This document shows, in pieces, positions 10,676 to 47,618 of a DNA stretch of 64,000 bases. The position numbers were made by a program, and so were the translations under genes. Numbering within the stretch: the first letter of the stretch is position 1; each line of letters starts with the position of its first letter. The DNA is taken from the NCBI RefSeq assembly GCF_020387415.1, contig NZ_JAGWCB010000007.1:248001-312000 (forward strand). Reading direction: 5' to 3'. The notes under the pieces are model-generated. The model saw only the letters and a list, made by a program, of their open reading frames with translations. It did not search any database and was not told the DNA's origin. This DNA comes from Ideonella benzenivorans (lineage in GTDB: Bacteria > Pseudomonadota > Gammaproteobacteria > Burkholderiales > Burkholderiaceae_C).

Positions 10676-11031
10676 CGAGATCGGGGCCGCCGTGCAGACA
10701 CGGGACACGGGCGCTCGGAGATGAACCAGAAACGTGCACCGGCACTTTGTGGCCCGGATTTTGCGAAACATGAACCATGTTTCCAGTCGTTCCGGGCCGC
10801 TCTCCGCGCCGTGTTGGGGCAGCCCGCCGGGAAGCGCCTCACGCCATCGCACCAAAACGGCTTGTGGCGGAACCGGTCTGCCGGGCGGGGGTATGAGTCC
10901 AGGTTATCGCCCCGGCACAAGTCGGCATTGTTGTTCGGGCACGGCCTTCCCTACGCTGAAAGCCAGAACCTGCTGATGACAGGTGAATGAATTGGAAACA
11001 GGGATTTTGTTCATCTGAGAGGAGAGGTACT
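10676..11031. other. Non-coding leader of the TonB-dependent receptor
   Basis: About 355 bp without a convincing gene. A weak promoter-like pair, TTGTTG at 10928-10933 and TACGCT at 10952-10957 with 18-bp spacing, points towards the receptor gene. A purine-rich GGAGAGG at 11021-11027 is its likely ribosome-binding site. An in-frame ATG at 10987 would add 15 unconventional residues before the signal peptide. No known riboswitch was recognised. Confidence 0.4.
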
Positions 11032-13854
11032 TTGTTGTTCAAGCTCAATCGGCTCACGCAGAGCCTGGTCATGGTGGGCCTGGTGCTGCCCGTCATGGCC
11101 CACGCGCAGGATGTGCCGGCCACGCCGAAGAAGGACGAGGCCAAGGCCCAGCGCATCGAGGTCACGGGCTCCAGCATCAAGCGGGTGAGGGATGAAGGGG
11201 CGGTGCCGCTGCAGGTCATCCGGGCCCAGGACCTGGTCAAGCAGGGCATCACCAGCGCCGAGCAGTTCGTGGCGACCTTGTCGTCGAACGGCAATGGCAT
11301 CGACAACATGACCACCAACCAGGGGGGCGACTTCCTCGGCAGCACGGCCGACCGGCCCCACAACAACGGCGCGGCTGCCGCCTCGCTGCGCGGCCTGGGC
11401 GCGCAGTACACGCTGGTGCTGCTCAATGGTCGGCGCCTGTCCACCCACGGCCTGAACGGCACCTCGGTCGACCTGAACTCGATTCCGATGGCGGCGGTGG
11501 ACCGCATCGAAGTGCTCAAGGACGGCGCGTCCGCCATCTACGGCACCGACGCGATCGGCGGGGTGATCAACTTCATCCTCAAGCGCGACTACCAGGGCCT
11601 GGAGATGACGGCCTCGGCCGACAAGACCCAGCATGGCGGCGGTGACATGTACCGCCTGTCGGTGCTGGGCGGCACGGGCGACTACGAGGCCGACGGCTAC
11701 AACGCGCTGTTCAGCCTGACCTACGACACCAACAACCGCTTGCGTGGGTCTCAGCGTTCGTTCCAGAACGGCTACCAGCCCGACCGCGGCCTGGCGCCGG
11801 ACACCACCGGCACCCCGTTCGCCACCATCGGCGCGTCGTCCGGCACGGCGCTGTCGGGCTACTACACGCTGCCCGGGGACACCCAGTCCTACAACAAGGC
11901 CAACCTGCTGGCGCTGGAGGGCAATTGTTCGGCGGGCACCGACATGGTGGCCTACCGCGGCGACATCACCGGCTTCAACAACAACAACAAGGCCTGCGCC
12001 TACGACTACGGCAAGCAGTGGAGCCTGATGCAGCCGGTGGACCGCTACAACCTGGTGTCCAAGGTCAACTTCAAGCTCTCGCCCGATCACATGCTGACGG
12101 CGGAAGTGGTGGCCTCGCACACCGAATCGGCGGTCGAGTACACCCCGATCCAGATCACCACCAAGTCGGCCGGCGCGCTGTACCCGGCGTACATCAAGGA
12201 CAGCAGCGGCAACCTGGTGCGTTCGCCCTATTACCAGGACCTGACTGGCCTGGTGCCCGGCTTTGACAACACCAAGGACGAGCTGATCCGCTGGCGCTGC
12301 CTGGAATGCGGCCCGCGTCAGCAAAACACCAAGACCGACGCCTACCGCGTCCTGCTGGGCCTGGAAGGCGTGCTGGGGGGCGACTGGGACTACAAGACCG
12401 GTCTGTCCTATGCGCAGAGCAAGGCCGACACCACCCTGGGCGACGGCTACCTGTACCAGGACCAGCTGACCGCCGCGATGGCCACCGGCCTGATCAACCC
12501 CTTCCTGCGGGCTGGCGAAACCCAGACGGCCGAGGCGATGGCGCTGCTGAATGCGGCCAAGGCCAAGGGGGCCAAGCTCTACGGCGGGCAGGCCAGCGTG
12601 GCCGAGTTCGACGCCACCGTCTCGCGCGAGATCTACCGCCTGCCGGCCGGTCCGGTGGCGATGGCGCTGGGCCTGGATGTCCGCAACGAGAAGTACAAGT
12701 TCAACGAGTCGGCAACCAGCTATCCCGCGATCAACGGCGTGAGCGCACCGGCGTCGCTGGACGAGGCCAGCCGCGACATCAGCGCCGTGTTCGGTGAGCT
12801 GGACGTGCCGTTGATGAAGAACCTGGACCTGCAGGCCGCGCTGCGCTACGACCACTACAACGACTTCGGCGCCACCACCAACCCGAAGGTGGCGCTGCGC
12901 TGGCAGCCGCTGCCGGAGCTGGCCTTCCGGTCCTCCTACAGCGAGGGCTTCCACGCCCCGGGCTTCGAGCAGCTCTATGGCGGCGCCAGCACCGGTCAGT
13001 TCAACAGCGACATCAACGACCCGGTGCTGTGCCCCAACGGCGGCACCGACGCGAACGCCTGCGGCATCCGCCCGGAGATCGTCACCACCAGCAACCCGAA
13101 CCTGAAGCCGGAGACCTCCAAGCAATGGTCGATCGGCTTCGTGGCTTCGCCGCTGCCGTGGCTGACCTCGAGCGTGGACTTCTGGAACATCGAGATCGAC
13201 AACAAGATCGCCGCGCTGTCGGGTCGGGCGCTGATGGCCCACTACGACCAGTATGCGCAGTACGTGGTGCGCGATGCCGATGGCTACATCTCCCAGGTGA
13301 ACGCGCCGTTCATGAACCAGGCCGGCGCCAAGACGCGCGGCGTGGACCTGAACCTGACGGCCAACATCAAGGACGGGGCCAACAGCTGGGTGGCGAACTT
13401 CGACGGCACCTACACCAGCAGCTACAAGTCGCGCTTCAGCGCCAGCGACCCGTGGACCGAGCTGGTGGGCACCTTCGGCGACGCGATCTATGGCTATGAC
13501 CTGCATGTGCGCTGGAAGCACCAGGCCTCGCTGACCTGGTCGCGCGGCGATTGGAGCGTGACCGGCGTACAGGCCTTCACCGGCCACTACCGCGACGAGG
13601 TGGACGGCTTCGGTTCGGGCGTGACCTCGTCCAATGCGCCGACCTGGGTGAAGAGCTACACGCTCTACCACCTGTCGGCCACCTACACCGGCTTCAAGGA
13701 CACCAGCGTGACCTTTGGCGTGAAGAACCTGTTCGACACCAAGCCCTCCTACAGCGCCCACAATGTGGACAACGTGGCGGGCGCCGGCTGGGATGCCCGG
13801 GTGGGCGACCCCCGGATGCGTTCCTTCACCCTGCGCGTGAACCACAAGTTCTGA
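11032..13854 (+). CDS. TonB-dependent outer-membrane receptor
   Basis: A 940-aa outer-membrane beta-barrel for energy-coupled uptake. The chosen TTG start lies 7 bases after GGAG and yields a clean signal peptide (LFKLNRLTQSLVMVGLVLPVMAHAQ). A TonB-box-like segment IEVTGSSIKR follows, then the plug (SLRGLGAQYTLVLLNGRR; VDRIEVLKDGASAIYGTDAIGGVINF). The barrel ends in aromatic TLRVNHKF, the usual C-terminal signal for outer-membrane insertion. It resembles the large receptors for peptides, glycans or complex nutrients rather than classical siderophore receptors. Its place between a peptide importer and a PBP4 gene makes murein fragments or peptides a reasonable guess. The ATG at 10987 is the alternative start. 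Confidence 0.92.
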   Translation: MLFKLNRLTQSLVMVGLVLPVMAHAQDVPATPKKDEAKAQRIEVTGSSIKRVRDEGAVPLQVIRAQDLVKQGITSAEQFVATLSSNGNGIDNMTTNQGGDFLGSTADRPHNNGAAAASLRGLGAQYTLVLLNGRRLSTHGLNGTSVDLNSIPMAAVDRIEVLKDGASAIYGTDAIGGVINFILKRDYQGLEMTASADKTQHGGGDMYRLSVLGGTGDYEADGYNALFSLTYDTNNRLRGSQRSFQNGYQPDRGLAPDTTGTPFATIGASSGTALSGYYTLPGDTQSYNKANLLALEGNCSAGTDMVAYRGDITGFNNNNKACAYDYGKQWSLMQPVDRYNLVSKVNFKLSPDHMLTAEVVASHTESAVEYTPIQITTKSAGALYPAYIKDSSGNLVRSPYYQDLTGLVPGFDNTKDELIRWRCLECGPRQQNTKTDAYRVLLGLEGVLGGDWDYKTGLSYAQSKADTTLGDGYLYQDQLTAAMATGLINPFLRAGETQTAEAMALLNAAKAKGAKLYGGQASVAEFDATVSREIYRLPAGPVAMALGLDVRNEKYKFNESATSYPAINGVSAPASLDEASRDISAVFGELDVPLMKNLDLQAALRYDHYNDFGATTNPKVALRWQPLPELAFRSSYSEGFHAPGFEQLYGGASTGQFNSDINDPVLCPNGGTDANACGIRPEIVTTSNPNLKPETSKQWSIGFVASPLPWLTSSVDFWNIEIDNKIAALSGRALMAHYDQYAQYVVRDADGYISQVNAPFMNQAGAKTRGVDLNLTANIKDGANSWVANFDGTYTSSYKSRFSASDPWTELVGTFGDAIYGYDLHVRWKHQASLTWSRGDWSVTGVQAFTGHYRDEVDGFGSGVTSSNAPTWVKSYTLYHLSATYTGFKDTSVTFGVKNLFDTKPSYSAHNVDNVAGAGWDARVGDPRMRSFTLRVNHKF

Positions 13855-34749: not shown

Positions 34750-35823
34750 ATGCACCCCTACCAGTCCCTGGACGACAAGAGCTTCTGGGCCACCGCTGTT
34801 GCCAAGCGGAACATGTTCGACATTTCGGATCTGTGGACGCCCAAATTCGACATTCGGCCTGACATGAAGGTCTCGACCTTTGGGTCGTGCTTTGCCCAGC
34901 ACATTGGCCGGGCGCTGGCCGCCCGTGGCTTCAACTGGTTCATGCCAGAGGCCGCACCCACGGGGCTCAGCCCAGAAAACGCCCAGCGCTTCAACTACGG
35001 CGTGTTTTCGGCACGCACCGGCAATATCTACACCGTGTCGCTGTTGCGGCAGTGGGTGGAATGGGCCCTGGGAGAGGCGGTTGCGCCGGAGGAAGCGTGG
35101 TCCCAGGACGGGCGGTTCTACGATCCGTTTCGCCCCAACATCGAGCCGCAGGGATTCGAATCACCGCAAGAGATGCTGCGTTCCCGTGGGGCGGCGGTGG
35201 CAGCGTTCAGACGTTGCCTGAAGGAATCTGATCTGTTTGTCTTCACGCTTGGGTTGACCGAGAGTTGGTTCCACAGACAGTTCGGGTATGAATACCCCAT
35301 GTGCCCCGGAACGGTGGCGGGCGAATTCCATGAGGACCAGCACAAATTCGTGAATCAGCTGTTTCCGTTCATCCGGAAGACGCTGGCGCAGACGCTGGAG
35401 AAGATCCAGGCCATCAACCCCACGATCAAGTTTCTGTTGACGGTGTCGCCGGTGCCGCTGACGGCGACCATGTCCGGTGGGCATGTGCTGGTGGCCACCA
35501 TGGAGTCGAAATCCATCCTCCGTTCTGTGGCTGGCCAGTTGAGCCGGAACGTCGAGTCCGTGGACTACTTTCCGTCCTACGAGATCATCAGCGCCACGCC
35601 CTACCGTGGGACGTTCTTCGAGGCCAACCAGCGTCAGGTGAACCCGGTGGGTGTCAACCATGTGATGGACATGTTCTTCGAAGGCCTGGCCAAACGGGGC
35701 GGCTCGGCGAACGGCGCACTGGAGGGGCGTGATGCCCCCGGGGGGGCTCAGACCCGGGATGTTGTGTGCGAGGAAGAACTTCTGGGAGCATTCGCGCCAT
35801 CTCGCCAGGTGAGCGCCCCATGA
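34750..35823 (+). CDS. GSCFA domain protein
   Basis: A 357-aa protein of the GSCFA family. The eponymous motif STFGSCFAQHIG is at residues 42-53, with FTLGLTESWF and FLLTVSPVPL further on. The family is thought to have an SGNH/GDSL hydrolase-like fold, and members often sit in polysaccharide or glycan modification loci; the substrate is unknown. The gene overlaps an SGNH-like gene by ATGA. Base composition drops sharply here (one line at 35221 has 29 G+C in 60), unlike the flanking 70% genes, which suggests transfer. A start at 34735 is possible. Confidence 0.82.
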   Translation: MHPYQSLDDKSFWATAVAKRNMFDISDLWTPKFDIRPDMKVSTFGSCFAQHIGRALAARGFNWFMPEAAPTGLSPENAQRFNYGVFSARTGNIYTVSLLRQWVEWALGEAVAPEEAWSQDGRFYDPFRPNIEPQGFESPQEMLRSRGAAVAAFRRCLKESDLFVFTLGLTESWFHRQFGYEYPMCPGTVAGEFHEDQHKFVNQLFPFIRKTLAQTLEKIQAINPTIKFLLTVSPVPLTATMSGGHVLVATMESKSILRSVAGQLSRNVESVDYFPSYEIISATPYRGTFFEANQRQVNPVGVNHVMDMFFEGLAKRGGSANGALEGRDAPGGAQTRDVVCEEELLGAFAPSRQVSAP

Positions 35824-36518
35824 AGGTGGGGGTCATCGGGAACAGCCATCTGGCGAGTCTCAAGAAGGGCTGGGAGGCTTTGGCCGTTGCCAATCCGTCC
35901 GTGGCTTTGACCTTTTGGGGGGCGCCGGGGAACGACCTGGGCACGTTGGCCCGATCCGGAACCGCGTTGGTGTCACCGAGCGAGCAGGTCCGGCGGATGC
36001 TGGCCTTCACCAGTGGCGTGGGCGAAGAGATCCAAGTCCCCGATCACGATGTTGTGCTGCTGTATGGCCTGGATCTGCGGATCCCTTTCCTGCCCCTTGA
36101 TTTGTCAGAGCAGGTTCGGCAGCAGACCTGCGTGGACTGCCTGGACGCCTCGCTCAATCTGCGGCTCGCACGTGAGATTCAAGGCATTTCCGGTCGGATC
36201 CCGATTTACATCGCCCCGCGCCCCATGGGCGCGTTTGTGGCCAAGCACAAGCTGAGCACGCCGCATGAGTCCTATGCCGAGGTGGTCCGGCGGTTTCAAA
36301 GGATCGCGGCCCAGGTTGCCTTGAAGTTTCAAGCACAGCCGCAGGAGACCTTGACCTACGACTGGTTCACCCAAGAACACTTTGCCCGCAACAGCGTCGA
36401 TCTGGCCGGGCCCGATGGCGCAGACCTGGCCAAGGTGCGCCACCGGGTGGACCATCACCACATGAATGGTGACTACGGACGATTGTGGCTAGAGGGTTTC
36501 CTGCCGCAGTTGAGGTGA
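35820..36518 (+). CDS. SGNH-like hydrolase, partner of the GSCFA protein
   Basis: A 232-aa protein beginning MKVGVIGNSHLASLKKGW. The GNSH block (7-10) resembles the nucleophile region of SGNH hydrolases, and a DHHHMNGDYGRLW segment near the C-terminus resembles block V (DxxH). No signal peptide is seen. It is translationally coupled to the GSCFA gene and shares its lower GC. The pair may form a two-component acyl- or glycan-modifying enzyme, but no substrate can be named. Its 3' end overlaps the convergent AraC gene by 30 bp. Confidence 0.68.
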   Translation: MKVGVIGNSHLASLKKGWEALAVANPSVALTFWGAPGNDLGTLARSGTALVSPSEQVRRMLAFTSGVGEEIQVPDHDVVLLYGLDLRIPFLPLDLSEQVRQQTCVDCLDASLNLRLAREIQGISGRIPIYIAPRPMGAFVAKHKLSTPHESYAEVVRRFQRIAAQVALKFQAQPQETLTYDWFTQEHFARNSVDLAGPDGADLAKVRHRVDHHHMNGDYGRLWLEGFLPQLR

Positions 36519-37421
36519 CTGCCAGCTGGCGCGGGCGTAACGCCCGGGTGCTTGCCCCACCTGCCGGTGGAAGGCCAGGCTGAAGGCGCTGGCGGAGCCG
36601 TAGCCGACCCGCTCGGCCACTTCGGCGACGGGGCGCTGTTCATTGCGCAGCAAGGTCTTGGCGATCTCCATGCGCCAGGCCAGCAGGTACGCCATCGGCC
36701 CCAGGCCCATCACGCGCCGAAAGCGTTCGAAGAAGGCGGAACGGGACAGGGCGGCCAGCTTCGCCAGCTGTTCACTCGTCCAGGGCCGATCGACCTGGGC
36801 GTGCAGCTGGCTGAGCACACGCGCCAGACGGGCGTCGGCCAGGCCACGCAACAGCCCGGGGGGCGCGGTGTCGCTGGCCGCCATGCGCATCGATTCGATG
36901 AGCAGCAGGTCCACCAGGCGGGTGAGCGCGAAGTCCGCGCCGGGTTGGGCGTCGGCCGCTTCCTCGCCCACCATGCGCACCAACTGGGCCAGGCGGGCCG
37001 AGCCCCGCACATGGACCACGCCGGGCAGCATGGCGGCCAGCAGCGCGGCGTCGCCACCGTCAAAGGCGAAGGCACCGCCCAGCGAGCGCAGGTCCGGGCG
37101 TCCGCGGCGCTCGCCGTAGCGCAGCCCGCCCCGGGTGTTGGCGGCGGCCAGCGGGTCCAGCGGGATGGGCGGCGGGGCCTCGCCCGGGCTGGACAGCGTG
37201 AAGCTCGGCGTGCGAGGCAGCAACACGAAGTCGCCCGCCTGCAGGACGAGGGGGGCATGGCCATCGACGCTGAGCCGGCAACTGCCCGCCAGCAGGATGC
37301 AGAAGCTGGGCAGGCCGTACTCGGCATAGCGCACGGCCCAGGCGCCCTTGGCCGTGATGGGGTTGGCCATCACCGCACGAGGGCGCAGCAGGCGGACGAC
37401 GTCGGACAGGGGATCGTGCAT
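36489..37421 (-). CDS. AraC family transcriptional regulator with cupin domain
   Basis: A 310-aa regulator. The N-terminal cupin_6-type sensor (FCILLAGSCRLSVDGH; LQAGDFVLLPRTP) is followed by a C-terminal pair of helix-turn-helix units (WTSEQLAKLAALSRSAFFERF; PVAEVAERVGYGSASAFSLAFHRQVG). It diverges from the SDR gene at 37522 with a 100-bp gap, so that oxidoreductase is the likely target. GACGAT occurs twice in the gap, at about 37430 and 37456, and could be part of binding sites. Confidence 0.92.
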   Translation of the reverse strand: MHDPLSDVVRLLRPRAVMANPITAKGAWAVRYAEYGLPSFCILLAGSCRLSVDGHAPLVLQAGDFVLLPRTPSFTLSSPGEAPPPIPLDPLAAANTRGGLRYGERRGRPDLRSLGGAFAFDGGDAALLAAMLPGVVHVRGSARLAQLVRMVGEEAADAQPGADFALTRLVDLLLIESMRMAASDTAPPGLLRGLADARLARVLSQLHAQVDRPWTSEQLAKLAALSRSAFFERFRRVMGLGPMAYLLAWRMEIAKTLLRNEQRPVAEVAERVGYGSASAFSLAFHRQVGQAPGRYARASWQSPQLRQETL

Positions 37422-37521: not shown

Positions 37522-38289
37522 ATGAAGACTGTGCTGATCACCGGCTGCTCGTCCGGCTATGGGCTGGAAACCGCTCGCCACTTTCACGCCCTGGGCTGGT
37601 CGGTCATCGCGACGATGCGCCAGCCCCGTGACGACAGCTTTCTTCCCGTGTCGGATCGGCTGCGCGTGCTGCCGCTGGACGTGACCCGCCCGGAGAGCAT
37701 TGCCCAGGTGCTGGAGGCCGCCGGCCCCATCGACGTGCTGGTGAACAACGCCGGCATCGGCCTGTTCGGCGCCTTCGAGGCCACGCCCATGGCCACCGTG
37801 CACGAGCTCTTCGAGACCAACACCTTCGGCACCATGGCGATGTGCCAGGCGGTCATTCCGCAGTTCCGGGTCCGCGGGGCCGGCACGCTCATCAACGTCA
37901 CCTCCAGCGCCGTGCTGGCGCCCATGCCTCTGGTGGCGGCCTACACCGCCAGCAAGATGGCCGTCGAGGGATTCAGCGCCTCCTTGGCGCTGGAGCTGGC
38001 ACCGTTGGGCGTGCGGGTGAAGCTGGTCCAGCCCGGCTACGGCCCCACGACCCGGTTCGCGGCCAATGGCCAGGGGCGCATGCAGGGGCTCATCACCGAG
38101 CCCTATGCCGCCTACGCGCACAGCGTCTTCGCCCAGTTCCAGGGCGCTGCACGCACGACCCAGCCGGCCGATGTGGCCGAGGCGGTCTGGCAGGCGGCGC
38201 AGGAGGGGGCAGATCGGCTGCGCTATCCGGCGGGCCCGGACGCGGTGGCGCTGGCGGCTACCCCGGCTGGTCAGGGGAGCAGGGCCTGA
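37522..38289 (+). CDS. SDR family NAD(P)-dependent oxidoreductase
   Basis: A 255-aa short-chain dehydrogenase. The cofactor motif TGCSSGYG is at residues 7-14, VNNAG marks strand 4, the catalytic Ser is in VTSSAV and the catalytic YxxxK is YTASK. A good ribosome-binding site (AGGAG) precedes the ATG. The substrate is unknown. It diverges from the AraC regulator and converges, with a 32-bp overlap, on the DUF2779 gene. Confidence 0.92.
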   Translation: MKTVLITGCSSGYGLETARHFHALGWSVIATMRQPRDDSFLPVSDRLRVLPLDVTRPESIAQVLEAAGPIDVLVNNAGIGLFGAFEATPMATVHELFETNTFGTMAMCQAVIPQFRVRGAGTLINVTSSAVLAPMPLVAAYTASKMAVEGFSASLALELAPLGVRVKLVQPGYGPTTRFAANGQGRMQGLITEPYAAYAHSVFAQFQGAARTTQPADVAEAVWQAAQEGADRLRYPAGPDAVALAATPAGQGSRA

Positions 38290-39841
38290 ACGCGGGGCCG
38301 GACGGGCACGTCGAGGCCTCTTCTTCACCGCGCTGTTCGAACAGCGCCACCATGTGGCGCAGCGCGGCGGTCTGCCGCTGGCCGTGGGCCAGCAGGGCGG
38401 CACGCAGCTGCTGCAGTTTGTCCGCCTGCAGACCGGGCTGCAGGGCGCGGGCAAAGGCCTCCAGCGGTGTATGCAGCCCTTCGCATTCGAAGTGCTCGGC
38501 CCCCAGATCGGGGGCGATGGCAGCGAACACCGACTTGGCCGACCAGGAGCCCGCCATGGCCGGGTGGTAGTAGTGGGCGCGGGCGATCTGGAACAGGTCG
38601 ACGATGCGCTCGGCCAGCGCCAGCAGGGCCGGGCCCAGGTCCTCGAACTGGGCGGCCAGCTCGCGCAGGCGGTTGCGTTCGAAGCCGGCGTTGTAGGCCT
38701 GCACCGGACCGTTGTCGTTCCCCAGGGCCAGCAGCAGGCTTTGGGCAAAGGCGCGGCGCGGGTCGCCCGTGGCGTCGGCCAGAAAACCGTGGTGCTCAGG
38801 TGGCTGCCCCGGCGCGGCCACGGTGTCGCAGCTCCATTGGAACGGCAGCACCTGGTAGGGCCGCGTACCGGCCCACACCGGCACCGCAAAGCCGATGGTC
38901 TCAAAGCGCAGGAAACGCCGGGGATAGGGCAGGGCACGCAGCAGCGGGGCGGCGGCCGGTTCCAACACCGGCGCGTTCTGCTGTACCGCGCGCGTGGCAC
39001 GGCGCAGACGGGCATCGGGCAAGGCGTCCAGCGGCACGCTGTGCAGGTCCACGTGGCCGGCGGCACGCAGTTGGGCGGCCAGTTCCCGGCCCACGATCTC
39101 CAGGCGTGCGCGCGCATCGCCGGGACGGGCGGGGGCCTCCGGCAGGGCGCAGTGCGCCAGCTGCTCGCAGGGGCCGGGCTGGGTGCAGGGGGCGCCCAGG
39201 GGCACGGCGGGTTCGGGCGCGCGGGCGCAGGCCTGCATGGCGGTCAGCCAGTGGCCCACCGGCCGCGATCCCAGCGTGGGGCCCAGGTCCACCTCGCGCA
39301 GCAGGCCGGCATAGCAGCCGTGGCCGGGGTAGATGAAGCCGGTGTCCACCAGCAGCAGGCCCACGCTCTGCACCCGCAGCCCGCTGCGGGCCGCCACATG
39401 GGCCCACAGCGCCACCGCGTCCACATCGGCCTCGGTGCCCACGGTGGCGTAGCGCAGCTTGAACAGGCGCCAGCCGTGCGAGCCGCGGGTGACCAGGTCG
39501 ACGCGGGCGCACGCGCCGTCGTTACTGGCCAGGCAGGCGCCCAGCAGGGCCCAGCCTTCGGTCTGGGGCGTGGCCTCGGCCAGGGCGGCGTGGGTGCGCG
39601 CGATGGCCAGGTTCCAATCGGCCTCGGTGCGCGGGGCGGGCACCGCCACCCCGGCCGGAAAGGAGGCGCGCAGCGCCGCATCCAGCGCCGGCCCGTGGAC
39701 CACGTCGGCATCCGTGGGGTCGGCCGGGGCCGGTGCAGCCTCTTCAGCAGCGGCCTGCCGGTGCAGCCAGAAGCGGCGCGCACAGGCCCGCCAGCGGCGC
39801 AGGTCCGCGTCGTCCAAGAGGGCAAGGGTGTCGGCCATCAT
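38258..39841 (-). CDS. DUF2779 domain protein
   Basis: A 527-aa protein from the ATG at 39841 (two adjacent ATGs). It contains the DUF2779 block RFLRFETIGFAVPVWAGTRPYQVLPFQWS split in two motifs, LALGNDNGPVQAYNAGFERNRL and IVDLFQIARAHYYHPAMAGSWS. The pattern recalls exonuclease-like (DnaQ) folds with an N-terminal CxxC-bearing nuclease-like part (CTQPGPCEQLAHC). Function is uncharacterised; a nuclease role is inference. A longer start at 39919 exists. It could belong to the accessory gene group to its right. Confidence 0.8.
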   Translation of the reverse strand: MMADTLALLDDADLRRWRACARRFWLHRQAAAEEAAPAPADPTDADVVHGPALDAALRASFPAGVAVPAPRTEADWNLAIARTHAALAEATPQTEGWALLGACLASNDGACARVDLVTRGSHGWRLFKLRYATVGTEADVDAVALWAHVAARSGLRVQSVGLLLVDTGFIYPGHGCYAGLLREVDLGPTLGSRPVGHWLTAMQACARAPEPAVPLGAPCTQPGPCEQLAHCALPEAPARPGDARARLEIVGRELAAQLRAAGHVDLHSVPLDALPDARLRRATRAVQQNAPVLEPAAAPLLRALPYPRRFLRFETIGFAVPVWAGTRPYQVLPFQWSCDTVAAPGQPPEHHGFLADATGDPRRAFAQSLLLALGNDNGPVQAYNAGFERNRLRELAAQFEDLGPALLALAERIVDLFQIARAHYYHPAMAGSWSAKSVFAAIAPDLGAEHFECEGLHTPLEAFARALQPGLQADKLQQLRAALLAHGQRQTAALRHMVALFEQRGEEEASTCPSGPAFRPCSPDQPG

Positions 39842-39922
39842 GGGCAAAGGCTGGACAGAATCGGACAAACACGACAGATCGGGCCAGGGCGCGCCAGCGT
39901 CGACGGACGCCGACACCAAGGC

Positions 39923-40264
39923 TCAGTGGGCCCGTGCCGCCAAGGGCTTCACCGGGCCCACATCCACCAGAATGTCTTCCCCCTCCACCTGCAGTGGGTA
40001 GGGATGCAGCGCGCTGGGGTGGGCGTGCGACACGCACTTGCCGCTGCCCGCGTCATAGCCCCACTGGTGGATGGCGCAGACCACCCGCTGGCCGTCGAAG
40101 CAACCCTCGGCCAGCGGCACGTCGGCGTGCGGGCAACGGCCCCGGTAGGCCTTCAACTGCCCGCCCTGCGGCCAGACGAGCAGCACGCTCTTCTTGCCCA
40201 CCTGAAACAAACCCATGCCGCCTTCGGCGACGGCGTCCTTGCGACAAACGGGGGTGAAGGCCAT
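39923..40264 (-). CDS. Small Rieske (2Fe-2S) protein
   Basis: A 113-aa soluble Rieske ferredoxin-like protein. Cluster ligands are in RCPHADVPL (Cys-x-His) and CAIHQWGYD (Cys-x-x-His). The start MAFTPVCRKD at 40264 mirrors that of the second Rieske protein (MAFQTLCKQ) at 48976; an in-frame ATG at 40318 would add 18 residues. The electron partner is unknown. It lies 128 bp downstream of the helicase gene on the same strand. Confidence 0.88.
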   Translation of the reverse strand: MAFTPVCRKDAVAEGGMGLFQVGKKSVLLVWPQGGQLKAYRGRCPHADVPLAEGCFDGQRVVCAIHQWGYDAGSGKCVSHAHPSALHPYPLQVEGEDILVDVGPVKPLAARAH

Positions 40265-40392
40265 GGTGCGGGCTTCCGGGCAGTGATTTGGGCCTGATAA
40301 AGGCAAATTGCGGGCCATGGGGAACTGGCCTAGGGGGCGGGAGGAAGTTGTGACTGTCTTCGGCCAACCTCAGTCGTTCGCGAGATTCAGCC

Positions 40393-43053
40393 CTAAGGGG
40401 GGCTGGCCGCATTGCGCCAGGGTGCTGTAGGAGAGAAGCTGGGCGCCGCCTGCTTCAGCTGATCAAGCAAGCTGTTTTCTCTCTCTGTGATCTGCCCGCC
40501 AACCAAGCGCGGCGGGATTACCTCGCCGTGAAGCTGCGCGCGAAGGTCGTCCCATCGCTCGCGCAGCACGCGCCAGTGGTGTTCGTCGTAAGTGCCGCGG
40601 AAGATCACCGGCAGCACCTCGATGCGAGGTAGGTCTTCGCCACAGCGCCTTTCGCGCAACGCCCCATGCAGTTCCTTCGCCCAGCGGCTACCCACGCGAT
40701 CGACGCGACCAATTTGTTGTTCTACCACGCCGGGATTCCACTCGGGGTGCAGCAACACCACCACGCGGCAGGCCTCGTGTAGGTTCAGGCCCTCGCGGCC
40801 GACCAGTGATTGCGCGATCAGCACCATTGGCGCGGCCTCGGACCGGTTGAATGCTTGTTGAAGCATGCGACGCGACTCGGTCTTGGTGCCGCCATGCATG
40901 AAGCGGGCGAACTCCCCCGTGCGCGTGCCAAATTCGTCTTCCAGTCGGCGCTGGAACTCGGCCCAGCTCTCGGCAGGGTCGTCTTGTGCGTCGGCGTCGG
41001 CTTCTGCTGCATCGTTGTCCATCACTGCGTCGACCAACGCCGCGAATTCCTGTCCCAGCTCCCGTGTCTCCATATCGGCAGCTGCATTGGCCGTCAGCTC
41101 CAGCAACGCGCGGGCAACTACCGCGACCGGATGGCCGTCTTCGTCGCCAGATGGCGCGTCGGCGGCGGCTGCCTGCAAGCCGGCGCACAGCGTGCGATAG
41201 ATAGAAGGTGCGGTGAAGGCATCGCCCAAGCGCTGCACCAGAGCTTGGCGGAAGCGCTTACGCAGATTGCGTTCCCGGCGGTAGCCGGCGGCCAACGCAT
41301 CGTCAATATCTTGCAGCGCGATCGGGTGTTGCGCACCGTGCTCCTCGGTCCATTGCCTGTGCGCGGCACGGATTGCGGGCCATTGGTCCAGACCGTCGGC
41401 ACTGGCGCGCACGCTGCGTTGCGGCCAGTAACGATCTTCCGCCAGGCGGCGCAACAGCTCGCGTGCGTTAAGCAACAGCTCCAGCGCACGCATCTGGCGC
41501 GTGAAGCGGCCAAACACCAAGACCTTCTCGCGTTCGCCGGGCGGCGCAACCACCGCGCGCTTCTCGATGGCGCGCACAGCCTCGCGCAGCACGGGATGCT
41601 CGTAGGTGGTGTCGCCCACAGCGTGTAGGCTTTCGCGTAGCGACGCGCGCCAGAACGCTGCTCGCTGCCGAGCATGTGCGTCCAGCGCGGGTTCGGGCGC
41701 TTCCGCCTGTCCGTTGCTGCGGGCACGTTCGGCGTTTAGGGCAGCTTCGATACGCTCCTCTTCCTGCACGTCCTCGTCCAAGAACTTGCTGGTGCCGTGG
41801 CCGCTGGCGAAGGTGGTGCGCAGGTACTTTTCGTTGCGGCTACCACCGCCTCGGATCAGCGACAGCGCCTCGGCAGCGCATACCGCCTGTCTCCACGGCA
41901 GCGACAACTTCTCGGGGTCAACCAACACTTGACCCTCGGTGGCGCGGTAGCTGCCGCCCGCGTGCTCTTCGTAGAGGAGGACATCCGCGTCCTCGCGCTT
42001 GTCCCTCCGCACCACGAAGTCGCCCAGCTGGCGCTGGAAGTCGGCGGCCGCCGCGGTGTATGCATCGCGCGCCTGTCCGCTGGTGCGCCAAGCGAGGCGC
42101 ACGCGCTGCAAAGCCTCTGCATATCGGTCGATAGCGTCCCGCGCCGCCTGCAACCGTTTGGCGGGGATGCGAATGCGCTCCAGCGTCTGCACCCATTGCC
42201 CAGCATCCAACTCCACCGGCGTCGCGCTCATGGCCAGATAGCGCGTGTTGTCGTCCACGTGCAGTATTTCGTCCAGCAGGCGGGACAGCCGGCTGTCCTC
42301 ACCGCGGCTCTTGTGCGCTTCGTCCACCACCACCAGGTCGAAGAGACCAAAGCCAAGGCCGACGGCCTTCATCAGCATGCTGCGGTGTTCCGTGCCCATG
42401 GCATAGGTTGCAGGTCGCAACAGTGGCTCCCATTGCGTCTGTTGGGCGAACTGTCGCAGCGCGTCCCCGGCAGGAGACGCATCGTCCTGCATCATCCTTG
42501 TGATAGCCTTTGCTGCTAGCCAGGCCTCTTCGCCATAATGCTGTTTGCGTACCTTTCTAATGTGGTCGGGGCGGTCGCACAGCACTGCTACCAGCGCGGG
42601 CAGCAGTATCCAGCGGCATGAATGCGCGTTCTCCTGGATCTTCCAGTTGCTGAACGCGTGCGACAGCACCACCACTTTACGCTGGTTCCACGGTATGGGG
42701 CCGCCCTCGGCCCAGCCGTCCATGTAGCTGACGATGCCGCGTAACACGTACTCGGTTTCCAGCCCACCGCCACGCAGTTCGCGCTGCCACTGGTAGCCCA
42801 GGCCGCTGGGGATCAGCACCGCCACGCGGCCGCCGCTTCGAACCACTGAGTCGATCAGCTGCACGGCGATGCGCGTCTTACCCATGCCGACTTCGTCGGC
42901 CAGCACCATGCCATTGCGCGGCAGCTGGGTACCGAAAACCCGCAAAGTGGCACGCTGCCCCTTGTTGAGCCGCACCGCGGCGCCGGTGGCCTCCTGAGCT
43001 TCGATCTGCGCCACCTGGCCTGCCAAGTGTGCAGACACTTCAAGCCACCTCAT
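40393..43053 (-). CDS. SNF2/RapA-like DEAH helicase of the three-gene candidate defence operon
   Basis: An 886-aa superfamily 2 ATPase. Walker A is ADEVGMGKT (52-60), the DEAH box is at 244-247 (VVDEAHKS), motif III is SATP at 276-279, and motifs V-VI are SLVGREGLNLHEA and QQIGRVDRVGS (779-789). The order and wording match SNF2/RapA translocases. About 400 residues of charged insert separate the two lobes. The ATG overlaps the stop of the Tdp1-like gene, so the helicase is coupled to it. GC content is visibly lower than in the flanks. DNA translocation feeding a nuclease is the inferred role. Confidence 0.9.
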   Translation of the reverse strand: MRWLEVSAHLAGQVAQIEAQEATGAAVRLNKGQRATLRVFGTQLPRNGMVLADEVGMGKTRIAVQLIDSVVRSGGRVAVLIPSGLGYQWQRELRGGGLETEYVLRGIVSYMDGWAEGGPIPWNQRKVVVLSHAFSNWKIQENAHSCRWILLPALVAVLCDRPDHIRKVRKQHYGEEAWLAAKAITRMMQDDASPAGDALRQFAQQTQWEPLLRPATYAMGTEHRSMLMKAVGLGFGLFDLVVVDEAHKSRGEDSRLSRLLDEILHVDDNTRYLAMSATPVELDAGQWVQTLERIRIPAKRLQAARDAIDRYAEALQRVRLAWRTSGQARDAYTAAAADFQRQLGDFVVRRDKREDADVLLYEEHAGGSYRATEGQVLVDPEKLSLPWRQAVCAAEALSLIRGGGSRNEKYLRTTFASGHGTSKFLDEDVQEEERIEAALNAERARSNGQAEAPEPALDAHARQRAAFWRASLRESLHAVGDTTYEHPVLREAVRAIEKRAVVAPPGEREKVLVFGRFTRQMRALELLLNARELLRRLAEDRYWPQRSVRASADGLDQWPAIRAAHRQWTEEHGAQHPIALQDIDDALAAGYRRERNLRKRFRQALVQRLGDAFTAPSIYRTLCAGLQAAAADAPSGDEDGHPVAVVARALLELTANAAADMETRELGQEFAALVDAVMDNDAAEADADAQDDPAESWAEFQRRLEDEFGTRTGEFARFMHGGTKTESRRMLQQAFNRSEAAPMVLIAQSLVGREGLNLHEACRVVVLLHPEWNPGVVEQQIGRVDRVGSRWAKELHGALRERRCGEDLPRIEVLPVIFRGTYDEHHWRVLRERWDDLRAQLHGEVIPPRLVGGQITERENSLLDQLKQAAPSFSPTAPWRNAASPP

Positions 43054-45014
43054 AACTCATTCTCCCCGGAGCGCGCCACGGACTCCAGCCCGCAGACCTC
43101 CCAGCACTTCTCCACTGCGTCCAGCACCGGAAGGTAGCGCGCGAGCGCCGCCGATAAAGGATCTCGGGCAAACACCGGCAGACTGCACTCGGCGCGTAGC
43201 ACCGCCAGCGGATTCAACGCAAGCTGGCGCTTGAAGGCGTCAACCACTGGGCAATCAGCTGCTTGGCGTAGCGCCTGTTCTAGGCTGATGCACCACGCGT
43301 CCCAGTCCGCTTCGGACAAGCCGGCCTGCTTGTCGGCGACGTTCTCCATCAGACGCATCATGGTCCGGATGGCACTGTCGACGGGATCAGGCGCCGCTGC
43401 CCTGGCCAGTACTGTTCCTGTCTCGAAATCCCGCGTGTCGGTGTCACAGTCCTCTTCGGCCGGCGACTGCGGGAATTGCGCCAGCTGCCACCACGCCGAC
43501 TCCAGATCCAGCTTGGGTAGCTCCACCGCGGCCACGCGACCCGCGCTATCGATGACAGGAATGCTGCAACGCAGCTGTTCACCGGTAACGCTCCATTGCA
43601 CCACTACCGAAGGCTGCTGCGCGCCGCGCCAGACCACCTCCTGTGGCCCCAGGTAGGCGCAGACGTTGCCCGCCGTGTCCAGCACTTCGACCGGCACGGT
43701 GTAGGCTGGAAGCACCAGCCGAGCCGGCTGGCCAGCTGGCAACGGCACGTAGCGGCACCAGGAAACGGGCGGAGCCACAAACGCTGGTGGGCGCTCGGGC
43801 ATCTCGGAACCAGCCTGCAATTGGGCCACATCCTTCACTTCGTGCTTCCATTGCATTGGTAGGCGGCTGCTAGCGCATGACTCCTGCCCAGGTTTGGACC
43901 AAGTCAGCGCGTCGTCGCCAAACACCACACCGGCCTCCAGGTTGCCCTGCGGACAGTTCTGCAGGATACCGGGCCTTGTCAGGTTCCCGGAGCCCAAGTA
44001 GATCCAACCGTTGAGGCACTTGTCAGAATCTTTGCGATAGCCGCAACCGAAGATGAATTTTGCGTGCAACGTGCGTGCGGGGCGCTGGTCCAGGAAGGGC
44101 GGCGGCTCGGCAGCCCACACGCGCCAGCCCAGGGCCCAGATGGCAGTCAATCCGCTAGCCACAGCCTGGCAAGCGGTGGGTTCGACGAACAGGTGCACTT
44201 CGCAACTGCGGGTTGCCAAGCCGGCATCCCTCAGCGCGTCGACGATTTGCACTAGCGCCACCGGTGGCTCCTTGCTGGTCCCGCCTTCGTAGAAGCCAGA
44301 GCCGAGCATCAGCGTGTTGCGGTCCATCTCTCCGGCGTGGTGCCGCACGAATTCCGGCAGTTGGCGCAGCAGCGACTTCTTACGCGAGTCGAAGAAGCGC
44401 GCCTTCCGGCGAGGACGGTCCACGGCCCGTACCCAGGCGTCGAACTTGCCGCGGGCCAGCGCAGTGAGGCTTCGCGGCTCCGCTTCCAACGCGCCCAGGT
44501 CGAACTTGGGTTGCAGCCAGTGAAATAAGTCCCAGGCCGCCGCCACATCGGCGCGCGCCTGCAATGGGCCCAGGTCGCGCAAGGCGAGGTCCTCAGAGCG
44601 GACCTCTACCAACCACATCGCATCCAGACTGCGCTCCAGCGTTTCACGCGTCCAGTTGCCAGTGCTTACCACCAGCCGCAGGCACCAGCGTTCCGGCTCC
44701 TGTTCGTGGCGGTAGCCGAGCAGCGCCAACTTGGCATGTAACAGCGCGAAGTGCGATGCGTCGCGCATAGGCGCGTGCAGCACGCCAGGCGCATCGTGTG
44801 GCAGCACCTGCGACTGGCCACTATCAAGCAGCACGATCAGAGCCAGCTTGCCAGCATAGGCGCGCTGCGCCGTGGTTTGGCGCGTGAAGCGCTCCGCCGC
44901 GGCGTCCAGGAAAGCTGCATCGGCCGAATAGCCGCATAGCCACCCAAAAGTGCCGACATAACTCTCGGGCGGCGCGAAACATTGCAGCAGGGAAGGGGGC
45001 AGGTAGCGACTCAT
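43050..45014 (-). CDS. Phospholipase D/Tdp1-like HKN protein of the candidate defence operon
   Basis: A 654-aa protein with two phospholipase-D-type active-site halves. The first has His93, Lys95 and Asn120 (LLHAKLALLG, VVSTGNWT); the second has His317, Lys319 and Asn344 (LHAKFIFG, LGSGNLTRPG), each with the same 27-residue H-to-N spacing. The Asp of the usual HxKxxxxD motif is absent from both, as in tyrosyl-DNA phosphodiesterase (Tdp1). A C-terminal region of about 300 residues (VSWCRYVPLPAGQPARLVLP onward) is unrecognised. It overlaps the genes on both sides by ATGA. A DNA-end-processing or nuclease role is inferred. An upstream ATG at 45041 is less likely. Confidence 0.82.
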   Translation of the reverse strand: MSRYLPPSLLQCFAPPESYVGTFGWLCGYSADAAFLDAAAERFTRQTTAQRAYAGKLALIVLLDSGQSQVLPHDAPGVLHAPMRDASHFALLHAKLALLGYRHEQEPERWCLRLVVSTGNWTRETLERSLDAMWLVEVRSEDLALRDLGPLQARADVAAAWDLFHWLQPKFDLGALEAEPRSLTALARGKFDAWVRAVDRPRRKARFFDSRKKSLLRQLPEFVRHHAGEMDRNTLMLGSGFYEGGTSKEPPVALVQIVDALRDAGLATRSCEVHLFVEPTACQAVASGLTAIWALGWRVWAAEPPPFLDQRPARTLHAKFIFGCGYRKDSDKCLNGWIYLGSGNLTRPGILQNCPQGNLEAGVVFGDDALTWSKPGQESCASSRLPMQWKHEVKDVAQLQAGSEMPERPPAFVAPPVSWCRYVPLPAGQPARLVLPAYTVPVEVLDTAGNVCAYLGPQEVVWRGAQQPSVVVQWSVTGEQLRCSIPVIDSAGRVAAVELPKLDLESAWWQLAQFPQSPAEEDCDTDTRDFETGTVLARAAAPDPVDSAIRTMMRLMENVADKQAGLSEADWDAWCISLEQALRQAADCPVVDAFKRQLALNPLAVLRAECSLPVFARDPLSAALARYLPVLDAVEKCWEVCGLESVARSGENEL

Positions 45015-46336
45015 GCGGCTGTCTCCGCCTCGCCCAGCCACTGGTCCAGTCGTGCTTCCAGGTCCAATTCCATGAGGAAGAGATTGCGCATACGGAAGGA
45101 CATGCCGGCCGGTAACAGAATGCGGTCGGACAAGACGGCTGTCGCTTCATCGCCGTCCTGTTCTTCGCTCTCTTCCCCTGCTGCGCCGTCGAAGGCCATA
45201 CCAGGCACGATCTCCGCGTCGCTCAGCCGCAGCACACGACCGTCTCGGGCTACGAGCTGGGCCAGCACCTGCTGATGTTCCCCCCGAGCTATTTCGCGAC
45301 AGAACTGCAAGCCGGCCGGGTGGTAGTTGCCGTGCTCGGCTCCGGTGAGGAATTGCTCGGCAGCCGCCTGTGCGGCCGCTAGGGCTCTACCCACCGTGGT
45401 GGGCGGCGGCGCAGTCAGTCGAAGCGCGTGGCCCGCCGGCCCCATTACACGTTCACATGCATCAAGCACGGCTAGGGCAGCGTCGCGTGCGCGGAAAAAA
45501 CTCGCGCCAGCGTGAAGATCAGCCCAATGCTCAGGTGAAAACTCCTCCGGAGCGTGCACGTCCCAGCCTGACGTCGGCTCGTCCTGCAGCCGGCGCACCC
45601 AGGCTAGCGCCGCGCGGCGGCGAATGGAATTCGCGTCGCTGCGAGCCGACAGGCGTTCCCTCAGGACCTCGGAGGCACGCGGTGGCAGTGGCGCCAGCGG
45701 CGTGATTGCTCTCTCGATGGTCGCAATGTGGGCTACCCGCACGGGACTGCCCACCATCCACTTCGCCAACGTGTCTATTAGGCCGCTACCGTGCCAGCAC
45801 GCGGGATATGGGGCGCAAGCCGCTTCGAGAAGCGCCTCGCCCGCCTCGGACACGCAGTAGGCATTGAAGCGCTCACTGTTGGAGTCGACCAGGCCGAGAG
45901 CCAGCAGTGGCTGCACCGCCGACATACGCATCGGTTGGGTGACGTAGAACCCGGGGCGGCGCATCACTTGAAACGTGAGATTGTTGGCGTCTTGCAGCTT
46001 CTGCGCGCCGCGTATTCGCGCATCGCGGCGCTGAGCACCGCTCGACCGCGCCTTGCGCTGCCGCTCCAGCGTTGCCAATGCCATGCGGCAGGCGAGCGCT
46101 TCCACGGCATTCGCCGCCTCAATGTTGGAAACCTGTATGCTTTCACGGGCTTTGGCAGCCGCCGCGATGCCCAGCAACGGCCAAAGCAACTGCCTGCCGG
46201 TCCAGATACTGCCCATGCCCGGCACCGCCAGTTCGTTGAACTGCCGCACCGCAGCGCCGACATCCAGTGTGCGGACTCGCCGGGCCGCGACCAAGCCATC
46301 CGGCCCCATGAGGCCCCATGGAGTGGATGGATTCAT
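45011..46336 (-). CDS. Unknown 441-aa protein, first gene of the candidate defence operon
   Basis: No family was recognised. The sequence is mostly alpha-helical in appearance and has no signal peptide or membrane segment. Residues of about 119-172 (FQVMRRPGFYVTQPMRMSAV, then ALGLVDSNSERFNAYCVSEAG) look like a winged-helix fold. A short acidic stretch (AAGEESEEQDGDEA) lies near the C-terminus. It is translated first, with its stop overlapping the Tdp1-like ATG. A DNA-binding or specificity subunit is a guess from context. Confidence 0.75.
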   Translation of the reverse strand: MNPSTPWGLMGPDGLVAARRVRTLDVGAAVRQFNELAVPGMGSIWTGRQLLWPLLGIAAAAKARESIQVSNIEAANAVEALACRMALATLERQRKARSSGAQRRDARIRGAQKLQDANNLTFQVMRRPGFYVTQPMRMSAVQPLLALGLVDSNSERFNAYCVSEAGEALLEAACAPYPACWHGSGLIDTLAKWMVGSPVRVAHIATIERAITPLAPLPPRASEVLRERLSARSDANSIRRRAALAWVRRLQDEPTSGWDVHAPEEFSPEHWADLHAGASFFRARDAALAVLDACERVMGPAGHALRLTAPPPTTVGRALAAAQAAAEQFLTGAEHGNYHPAGLQFCREIARGEHQQVLAQLVARDGRVLRLSDAEIVPGMAFDGAAGEESEEQDGDEATAVLSDRILLPAGMSFRMRNLFLMELDLEARLDQWLGEAETAA

Positions 46337-46613
46337 CGCGTGGCGGCTCTCAACATTGGCTGTAGCACAAAGAGACGTTGCTGCGTGCTTGCAAAAAAGG
46401 GAGCAGGAAGCGAATCGCTGTCGCGCCTCCTCGCACGAAGGCGCGGTGTTGAGAAGGCGACCTCCCGGTTCGCTATTACGTTTTGTAGCACGGTGCCCTG
46501 GCAGGCCGCTTCATGCTCGTCATCTCAAATGTTGACTGTCTACTTTCCAGCCATCTATTGACGCTTCCCGAAGGACTGCTCCCGGTCGAAAGCCGTCTCC
46601 ACCAAGCACGATC

Positions 46614-47618
46614 TCACATCCGCACCACCACCTTGCCGAAGGCCCCCCGGGCCAGGTGCGCAAACGCTGCCGGCACCTCCTCGAAGCCATACTCGGCGGC
46701 AATCACCGGTTGCAGCCGATTGAGGTCCACCGCGCGGACCAGGTCTTCCAGCGCGCGGCGGTGGCCCACGCTGATGCCCTGCACCACGGCGCGCTGCAGC
46801 AGGGCGTCGTAGGTGGAGGCGGTGAACTCGCCGCCGTCCAGCACGCCGATCATGGACAGACGGCCGCCCTGGGCCAGCACGGCCATGGAGCGCGCGACGT
46901 TGGCGCCGCCCACGGTTTCCAGCACCTGATCCACGCCGTGCCCGCCGGTGAGGCGGCGGATCTCTGCCGGCCAGTCGCTGTCGCGCGCCAGGGCGTGGTG
47001 GGCGCCCAGCGCCTGCGCGCGCTCGCGCTTGTCCGCGCTGCCGGAGACCACGATGGCCTGCGCCCCGTGCAAGCGGGCCAACTGCACGCCGAACAACGCG
47101 ACCCCGCCGGTGCCGTGGACGAGCACAGTCTGGCCGGCGCGCAGTCCGCCCTGTTCCACCAAGGCGAACCAGGCGGTCAGCCCGGCGCAGGGCAGGGTGC
47201 TGGCTTGCACGGCGGACGCGCTGGCCGGCGCGGCCACCAGCCATTGCGCATCCAGCAGCACATGCGAGGCCAGGCCGCCCGGCCCCGGCGCCCCGAGGAT
47301 GGTCACGTCGGCAGGCGCCTGCCCGTCGATCCACCCGCCGACAAAGGTGCTGATGACCCGCTCGCCACCTTGCCAGCGGTGCACCCCGGCCCCCACGGCC
47401 GCGACCGTGCCCGCAAAGTCCGACGCCGGCACCAGCGGATGTGGCATGCCGCGGCCGTAGCTGCCGGTGGTGACCATCAGGTCGCGGTAGTTCAGGGCCG
47501 CGGCCTCCACCCGCACCAGCACCTGGCCGGGGCCGGGCAGGGGCAGAGGGGATTCGATGCAGCTCAGATGCTCCAGGCCCGGGGCCGTGAGTTGCCATTG
47601 GCGCAGCAGTTCGCTCAT
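46614..47618 (-). CDS. NAD(P)-dependent alcohol dehydrogenase/quinone oxidoreductase (MDR family)
   Basis: A 334-aa medium-chain dehydrogenase. The N-terminal GroES-like part has VEAAALNYRDLMVTTGSYG and PLVPASDFAGTVAAVG. The cofactor fold shows LVHGTGGVALFGVQLA. The structural-zinc Cys cluster is absent, as in zinc-independent members. AAGGAA lies upstream of the ATG. It diverges from a LysR gene, its probable regulator. The substrate is unknown. Confidence 0.9.
   Translation of the reverse strand: MSELLRQWQLTAPGLEHLSCIESPLPLPGPGQVLVRVEAAALNYRDLMVTTGSYGRGMPHPLVPASDFAGTVAAVGAGVHRWQGGERVISTFVGGWIDGQAPADVTILGAPGPGGLASHVLLDAQWLVAAPASASAVQASTLPCAGLTAWFALVEQGGLRAGQTVLVHGTGGVALFGVQLARLHGAQAIVVSGSADKRERAQALGAHHALARDSDWPAEIRRLTGGHGVDQVLETVGGANVARSMAVLAQGGRLSMIGVLDGGEFTASTYDALLQRAVVQGISVGHRRALEDLVRAVDLNRLQPVIAAEYGFEEVPAAFAHLARGAFGKVVVRM

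Follow-up and report, generated by a model that had tools for sequence, protein, structure and literature searches.

In the 64,000-nucleotide stretch of Ideonella benzenivorans DNA considered here (contig NZ_JAGWCB010000007.1, positions 248,001 to 312,000; hereafter the window), three leftward genes, which we call g1, g2 and g3, are likely to constitute a horizontally moving operon for anti-DNA defence, forming an unnamed branch of the class to which the Azaca system and the candidate system PDC-M27 belong. The genes encode, in that order, a protein of unrecognised family, a PLD enzyme and a SNF2/RapA-type helicase (see the table). A preliminary description, made from the sequence alone, had read the trio as one translation unit with ATGA overlaps; its coordinates are exact, both junctions are as described, and a single operon is supported. 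The start of g2 is taken as the ATG that overlaps g1, which gives a protein of 654 amino acids; the mechanically called open reading frame opens earlier, with a GTG at 45041.

The catalytic motifs of both enzymes are intact. Two HxK...N half-sites, by which HKN phosphodiesterases are recognised, are present in g2 as H93-x-K95...N120 and H317-x-K319...N344; the distance from H to N is 27 residues in both, as first described, and the motif residues are invariant in 14/14 aligned sequences (window included). Two PLD half-sites build one phosphodiesterase site, which works via a phospho-histidine. A match of the window g2 to PLDc_2 fell under the Pfam cut-off, no PDB chain matched its sequence at E ≤ 1, and its structure model, with a predicted local distance difference test score (pLDDT) of 49, was too poor for fold comparison. 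In g3, the Walker A (residues 52-60, ADEVGMGKT), DEAH (244-247) and motif VI (779-789, QQIGRVDRVGS) sequences that mark SNF2/RapA helicases were located at the positions previously given. No variation was seen at residues A52-G56, G58-T60, D244-H247, Q779-R786 and S789 across the 14 sequences aligned, again with the window included, and almost none at M57. SNF2 proteins travel along DNA using ATP. The best PDB match of g3 is RapA (3.6e-9).

The product of g1, described earlier as unrecognised, indeed has no match in Pfam, NCBIfam or PADLOC at E ≤ 1, and PADLOC scans of six g1 proteins yielded 0/6 with any match. The protein is conserved across a 15-row alignment. Its AlphaFold2 model (from a 4-row alignment, pLDDT 71.6) is mostly helical; when compared with PDB folds, the best match had an E-value of 0.31 and 0/271 matches reached E ≤ 0.001.

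The three genes are conserved together as a mobile unit. It is present at 20 loci, window included, and the order g1-g2-g3 is kept in 19 of these, that is, in 19/19 loci in which g1 is visible; two records are incomplete, with L050 beginning within g2 and L052 stopping within g3. Because 19 further loci carry it, the grouping is more than chance. Plasmid-borne trios were found in Pantoea, Paracoccus versutus, Haematobacter, Leisingera, Novosphingobium, Fuscovulum and Desulfosarcina. Divergent g1 and g2 probes match the identical 7 plasmid records out of 72,556 searched, and the g3 matches that cover about residues 30-875 fall in those same 7; altogether g3 matched 48 plasmid records, of which 5 are partial and 36 cover residues 805-875 only. 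The trio also occurs in Variovorax (g2 66% identical) and Janthinobacterium, and the other trio loci comprise four in three genomes of the window's genus, two in its order, three in further genomes and one IMG/VR contig. Among 16 genomes of the genus, full-length g3 is confined to the four that bear g1.

The distribution is nevertheless sparse. With its own genome counted, the trio was found in 4/60 relatives and in 3/399 genomes of the order, and there were 3 long matches (7 in all) among 369 genomes of the class and 2 (3 in all) among 398 of the phylum. Uncounted were matches confined to some 40 residues at the PLD motif in four genomes of the class search (G576, G475, G783 and G615) and an 85-residue match in the phylum search (G1123). 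The Novosphingobium plasmid copy (L012:9095-13404) looks damaged, an insertion of roughly 2.3 kb interrupting g2. An apparent g1-g2 fusion in Paracoccus versutus (L009) was rejected as a natural fusion and is not used as evidence: since the similarity to g1 stops at about residue 298 and the open frame continues into g2, the record seems to contain a frameshift.

Several partial or additional copies were encountered in the same searches. One genome of the window's genus (G013) has two copies of the trio (L014 and L017), and in another genome (G011, L015:353-1354) a second, partial g3-like frame lies immediately downstream of g3. In Klebsiella, Raoultella and Citrobacter, a 71-residue match to the g3 C-terminus (46% identical) is found in L035:8001-8207 and in 35 more plasmid records; in L035 this piece has a TrlF-like ATPase gene on one side and GTPase/dynamin-family genes on the other and resembles a remnant of a decayed relative. 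Plasmid pAMI8 of Paracoccus aminophilus (L034:8873-10621) contains a g3 relative reduced to its C-terminal part, adjoining an IS5-like transposase and with Fic and ScpB neighbours as in Fuscovulum (L013), apparently a remnant left after insertion.

The site occupied by the trio in the window is variable. Genome G006, of the same genus, aligns with the right flank as far as 46614 (92%) and with the left flank from 40322 (85%, 111 bp); between the two, 1.84 kb of other sequence (L111:8170-10009) takes the place of the trio, its longest frame being at most 222 amino acids among the frames listed. In congeneric G001 the left flank runs to 40327, the dehydrogenase gene is also absent, and there is no trio. 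The comparison covers two of the five congeneric genomes with a DUF2779 homologue. As the flank matches in these two genomes end there, the variable segment (see the table) holds just the three genes. The DUF2779 protein itself (38258-39919 of the window, 5e-38) adjoins the segment and is found in 6/16 genomes of the genus, own genome included.

The surroundings had been called accessory, which holds in part: the site itself varies, but the eight flank proteins annotated are mostly metabolic or regulatory (a zinc dehydrogenase, a Rieske protein, an SDR, LysR and AraC regulators and a DEAD helicase), together with DUF2779 and Fic, and form no obvious defence island. The reported drop in G + C content was confirmed in 2-kb bins, with 64.6-65.8% across the trio (40001-47000) against 73.6% just to the left (38001-40000) and 69.0-71.1% just to the right, within flanks of 69-74%. 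However, since other low bins exist within the window (64.1% at 35001-37000, 66.5% at 11001-13000), the low G + C content is not specific to the trio.

In relatives, defence and mobility genes are found beside the trio, and defence genes lie near many of its loci. In the neighbour survey, 128 flanking open reading frames of 15 loci were listed and a chosen part of these was scanned. In Haematobacter, the BREX genes pglX-pglZ-brxL precede the trio and genes for a reverse transcriptase, an ATP-dependent endonuclease, UvrD and ArdA follow it; type I methylase (HsdM) genes are near the trio in L006 and L022. Transfer genes include a relaxase gene in L015 and TraI_2/TraD-like genes next to the L017 copy. 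Clustering of the open reading frames placed an AAA ATPase family at 7/16 trio loci and PD-(D/E)XK proteins at 5/16. Both AAA ATPases scanned against PADLOC (L033, L022) are IetA-like, and WYL proteins are near four trio loci. A pair of PD-(D/E)XK and UvrD genes directly precedes the trio at L010, L011, L012 and L013.

With regard to these neighbours, AAA ATPases of one cluster precede or accompany the trio in L007, L008, L009, L011, L013, L022 and L033, several together with a WYL protein, and in Leisingera and Fuscovulum an ADP-ribosylglycohydrolase gene is also present beside the trio and the AAA ATPase. The AAA ATPase and WYL genes are perhaps a regulatory layer. The trio at L038 is likewise accompanied by a PD-(D/E)XK + UvrD (AddAB-like) pair.

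Two systems in PADLOC-DB 2.0.0, Azaca and the candidate PDC-M27, have the three-part plan and order of the trio. We take the PADLOC 'Zac' entry to be the Azaca system of Millman et al. 2022. In PADLOC (PDLC03828-03830) it consists of ZacA (DUF6361), the PLD protein ZacB and the SNF2 helicase ZacC; passages of the literature give ZacC as the helicase of Azaca (PMC12278908) and include a PLD-like domain in the system (PMC10952713). Loci L073/L074 score 428/299 bits with the ZacA model, 555/391 with ZacB and 1107/885 with ZacC. The 11 plasmid loci found through ZacA are all in A-B-C order (the gene table of L077 is incomplete and lacks the helicase, and L080 and L082 each have one gene labelled 'hypothetical'), and ZacB carries HKN half-sites too. 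PDC-M27 at L163, with proteins of 474, 666 and 887 amino acids, follows the same plan, and its M27B has the HKN residues. The earlier suggestion of a new defence system is thus upheld as to defence-like character and not as to a new kind, as Azaca and PDC-M27 share the plan.

The second and third proteins of the trio are distantly related to those of the Azaca class. The PADLOC scan proposed earlier returned a weak ZacB match for g2, DrmD or PDC-M27C for g3 and nothing for g1. ZacB was the sole match of the window g2 (1.5e-5) and the only match for 7/7 g2 proteins scanned, always weak (22-33 bits). In a profile-profile comparison g2 and ZacB aligned with an E-value of 6.3e-8, covering the first half, and with a score of 72.6, where 100 column shuffles reached at most 27.9; reciprocal hidden Markov model (HMM) searches were weak (best 7e-5 in one direction, 1.7 in the other). 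By these comparisons, the nearest named PADLOC relative of g2 is ZacB, and of the label 'Tdp1-like' only the HKN motif stands. For g3, the PADLOC matches were DrmD (3e-18), PDC-M27C (2.6e-17), BrxHI/II, HmaA, others and ZacC (8.1e-12); true M27C scores over 1,000 bits full-length, and PDC-M27C matches the g3 homologue of L010 at 1.5e-20. The kinship of g3 with ZacC is clear both between profiles (E 3.4e-13) and in reciprocal HMM searches (best 1.3e-12 and 5.5e-11).

Helicase trees are consistent with this relationship. A tree of 44 helicases sets the trio, ZacC and PDC-M27C opposite DrmD and 15 DrmD-profile matches, with a support of 100 in the Shimodaira-Hasegawa-like approximate likelihood ratio test; trio and ZacC form one group each, and PDC-M27C joins the trio (87). 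In a 65-row tree with RapA and extra SNF2 proteins, 36 others fall on one side (97), one aberrant row excepted (X_L030, branch 9.86, which splits this group), and PDC-M27C is placed nearer the other SNF2 proteins (84). Judged from these trees, the trio helicase lies on its own branch, beside ZacC and PDC-M27C and apart from DrmD and RapA.

The PD-(D/E)XK + UvrD pair is also shared with Azaca, where it stands directly before the operon in 2/11 plasmid loci (L075, L077) and on the opposite strand in L082. The UvrD proteins from trio and Azaca loci share 28-34% identity in aligned pieces of 115-557 columns, and the profiles of the PD-(D/E)XK nucleases match with an E-value of 7.9e-5 and a probability of 61%. 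This AddAB-like pair may be an exchangeable add-on module of the class.

The trio probably works like Azaca and PDC-M27, most likely as a surveillance complex whose g1 would sense or dock, g3 move and g2 cut. The g1 protein might recognise some feature of foreign DNA as it enters or replicates, or else dock the complex; g3 would track along or remodel this DNA with ATP; and g2 would cut it via its paired HKN half-sites, passing through a phospho-histidine intermediate like other PLD enzymes. Because the segment has no methylase, self DNA is probably spared by recognition of DNA structure or state (ends, damage or a replication intermediate) and not of modification. In the alphaproteobacterial versions, the PD-(D/E)XK + UvrD pair may process the cut ends. 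Quite unlikely in our judgement is a Tdp1-like role of g2, in which the enzyme would attack the DNA-protein joint wherever the SNF2 motor runs into a protein held tightly or covalently on foreign DNA; targets would be a phage terminal protein, a relaxase or an injected internal protein, with g1 as the adduct sensor. If true, the defence would respond to DNA-protein adducts and not to sequence or modification, and the HKN chemistry common to g2, ZacB and PDC-M27B would characterise an entire class of systems directed at adducts.

Several observations weigh against a defence operon of the Azaca/PDC-M27 class. No phage or plasmid phenotype is known for the trio, a phage collection searched with g1 and g2 gave no match, the window's own copy does not sit in an obvious defence island, and the neighbour counts stand without a random-gene control. 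The relationship to Azaca is distant, with g2 reaching 22-33 bits with the ZacB model against 555 and 391 for true ZacB in PADLOC, and the best PADLOC matches of g3 being DrmD or PDC-M27C, not ZacC. Profile and HMM comparisons demonstrated no relation of g1 to ZacA or PDC-M27A. Both trees are short searches without bootstrap, they differ in the place of PDC-M27C and one contains an aberrant row; their outgroups come mainly from DrmD and PDC-M27C profile matches, so rooting and sampling are limited.

A possible, though doubtful, alternative is that the trio is a very divergent Azaca, in which g1 would be a diverged DUF6361 protein and the trio one more subtype with the same mechanism. The identical gene order, the ZacB match of g2 and the PD-(D/E)XK + UvrD neighbours common to both would fit. 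The window g1 matches neither PF19888 (DUF6361) nor the PADLOC ZacA model. With the first alignments, the g1-ZacA profile comparison (E 0.096) scored 21.4, level with its controls (shuffle maximum 21.1, reversed 21.46) and below g1 against the unrelated ZacC (25.1). With deeper alignments the score rose to 24.35, above the reversed control (20.75) and every one of 60 shuffles (at most 20.45), and the match was co-linear over 255 columns, which is suggestive of kinship; however, hhalign gave a non-significant probability of 1.4% and E 0.038, and reciprocal HMM searches of g1 and ZacA found no match at a meaningful E-value. Homology of g1 to ZacA was therefore not accepted, the profile scores being borderline. 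In profile comparisons of g1 with PDC-M27A, and of M27A with ZacA, nothing exceeded the controls. The separate branching of the trio helicase also speaks against inclusion in Azaca.

Alternatively, the genes could form a DNA-repair or plasmid-maintenance operon, in which a bacterial Tdp1-like enzyme and a remodelling helicase clear DNA-protein adducts from host or element DNA with no role in defence. The HKN motifs are like those of Tdp1, the helicase is of SNF2/RapA type, and the trio is often plasmid-borne and beside transfer genes. We consider this unlikely in view of the rare and patchy occurrence of the trio at every rank counted above, the defence genes among its neighbours and the nearest named PLD relative being a defence protein. 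Still far less probable is that the trio is left over from DISARM or BREX, or is an accessory component of either. DrmD is the top match of g3 in both PADLOC and NCBIfam, and in one relative the trio stands directly behind BREX genes and a PD-(D/E)XK + UvrD pair; yet the NCBIfam score is 73 bits against a cut-off of 610, the segment lacks a methylase, DrmA and DrmB, the trio recurs without those genes, and a supported branch separates its helicase from DrmD and RapA. This reading was rejected on these family scores, the segment content, the neighbours and the helicase trees.

Features of the trio and its variable segment (positions in the window).
Feature	Positions	Strand	Description or basis
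g1	45011-46336	minus	441 aa, unrecognised family, mostly helical by prediction; proposed sensor/adaptor
g2	43050-45014	minus	654 aa, PLD superfamily, two HKN half-sites; proposed nuclease/phosphodiesterase
g3	40393-43053	minus	886 aa, SNF2/RapA-type superfamily 2 (SF2) helicase; proposed DNA translocase
g2 half-site 1, H93-x-K95 to N120	44655-44738	minus	counted from ATG at 45014
g2 half-site 2, H317-x-K319 to N344	43983-44066	minus	alignment of 14
g3 Walker A, residues 52-60	42874-42900	minus	alignment of 14
g3 DEAH box, residues 244-247	42313-42324	minus	alignment of 14
g3 motif VI, residues 779-789	40687-40719	minus	alignment of 14
ATGA overlap g1/g2	45011-45014	minus	read in sequence, GCATGAGTCG
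ATGA overlap g2/g3	43050-43053	minus	from gene coordinates
Variable segment containing the trio	40323-46613	no strand	flank comparison with congeneric genomes

Compared with known proteins and systems, g2 shares the two HxK...N half-sites with the Tdp1 family, but its sequence finds no counterpart among PDB chains at E ≤ 1. Like the trio, DISARM combines a SNF2-like helicase (DrmD) with a PLD protein (DrmC). Because the variable segment has no methyltransferase or DUF1998, the trio is not DISARM, as the preliminary description had already held; it also differs in the absence of DrmA and DrmB (the DUF1998 protein) from the segment and in a helicase that a supported tree branch separates from DrmD. 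Hachiman (HamAB) likewise pairs a helicase with a nuclease without a methylase, a relation by analogy only, and it differs in having two genes, another nuclease type and another helicase. According to a published abstract, the Hachiman helicase restrains the nuclease on intact DNA and frees it on damaged DNA. By analogy, this is a possible precedent for DNA-state sensing and target choice without a methylase. The trio is not described in the passages of PMC12839542, PMC12458937, PMC10952713, PMC12278908 and PMC12629846, a statement confined to those passages, and its branch carries no name in PADLOC-DB 2.0.0.

In contrast to Azaca, g1 of the trio is not DUF6361 at a significant level by any test, and the helicase of 886 amino acids on its own branch differs from the Azaca helicase of about 1,040-1,070. 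From PDC-M27 the trio differs in that the M27A and M27B models of PADLOC gave 0 matches among 6 g1 and 7 g2 proteins. By sequence criteria, then, it is not Azaca (by ZacA), not PDC-M27 (by A and B) and not DISARM. Similar to the trio, however, Azaca has the order unrecognised protein, HKN PLD enzyme and SNF2 helicase in overlapping genes, with first two genes of similar size and a PD-(D/E)XK + UvrD pair before some operons, and PDC-M27 resembles it in order, sizes, HKN-type PLD protein and related helicase. The three can be joined as one architectural class, an unrecognised protein with an HKN PLD enzyme and a SNF2 helicase, in which comparison suggests that the two enzymes are the constant parts and that the first gene may swap, so that the role of g1 and ZacA becomes testable by exchange between branches.

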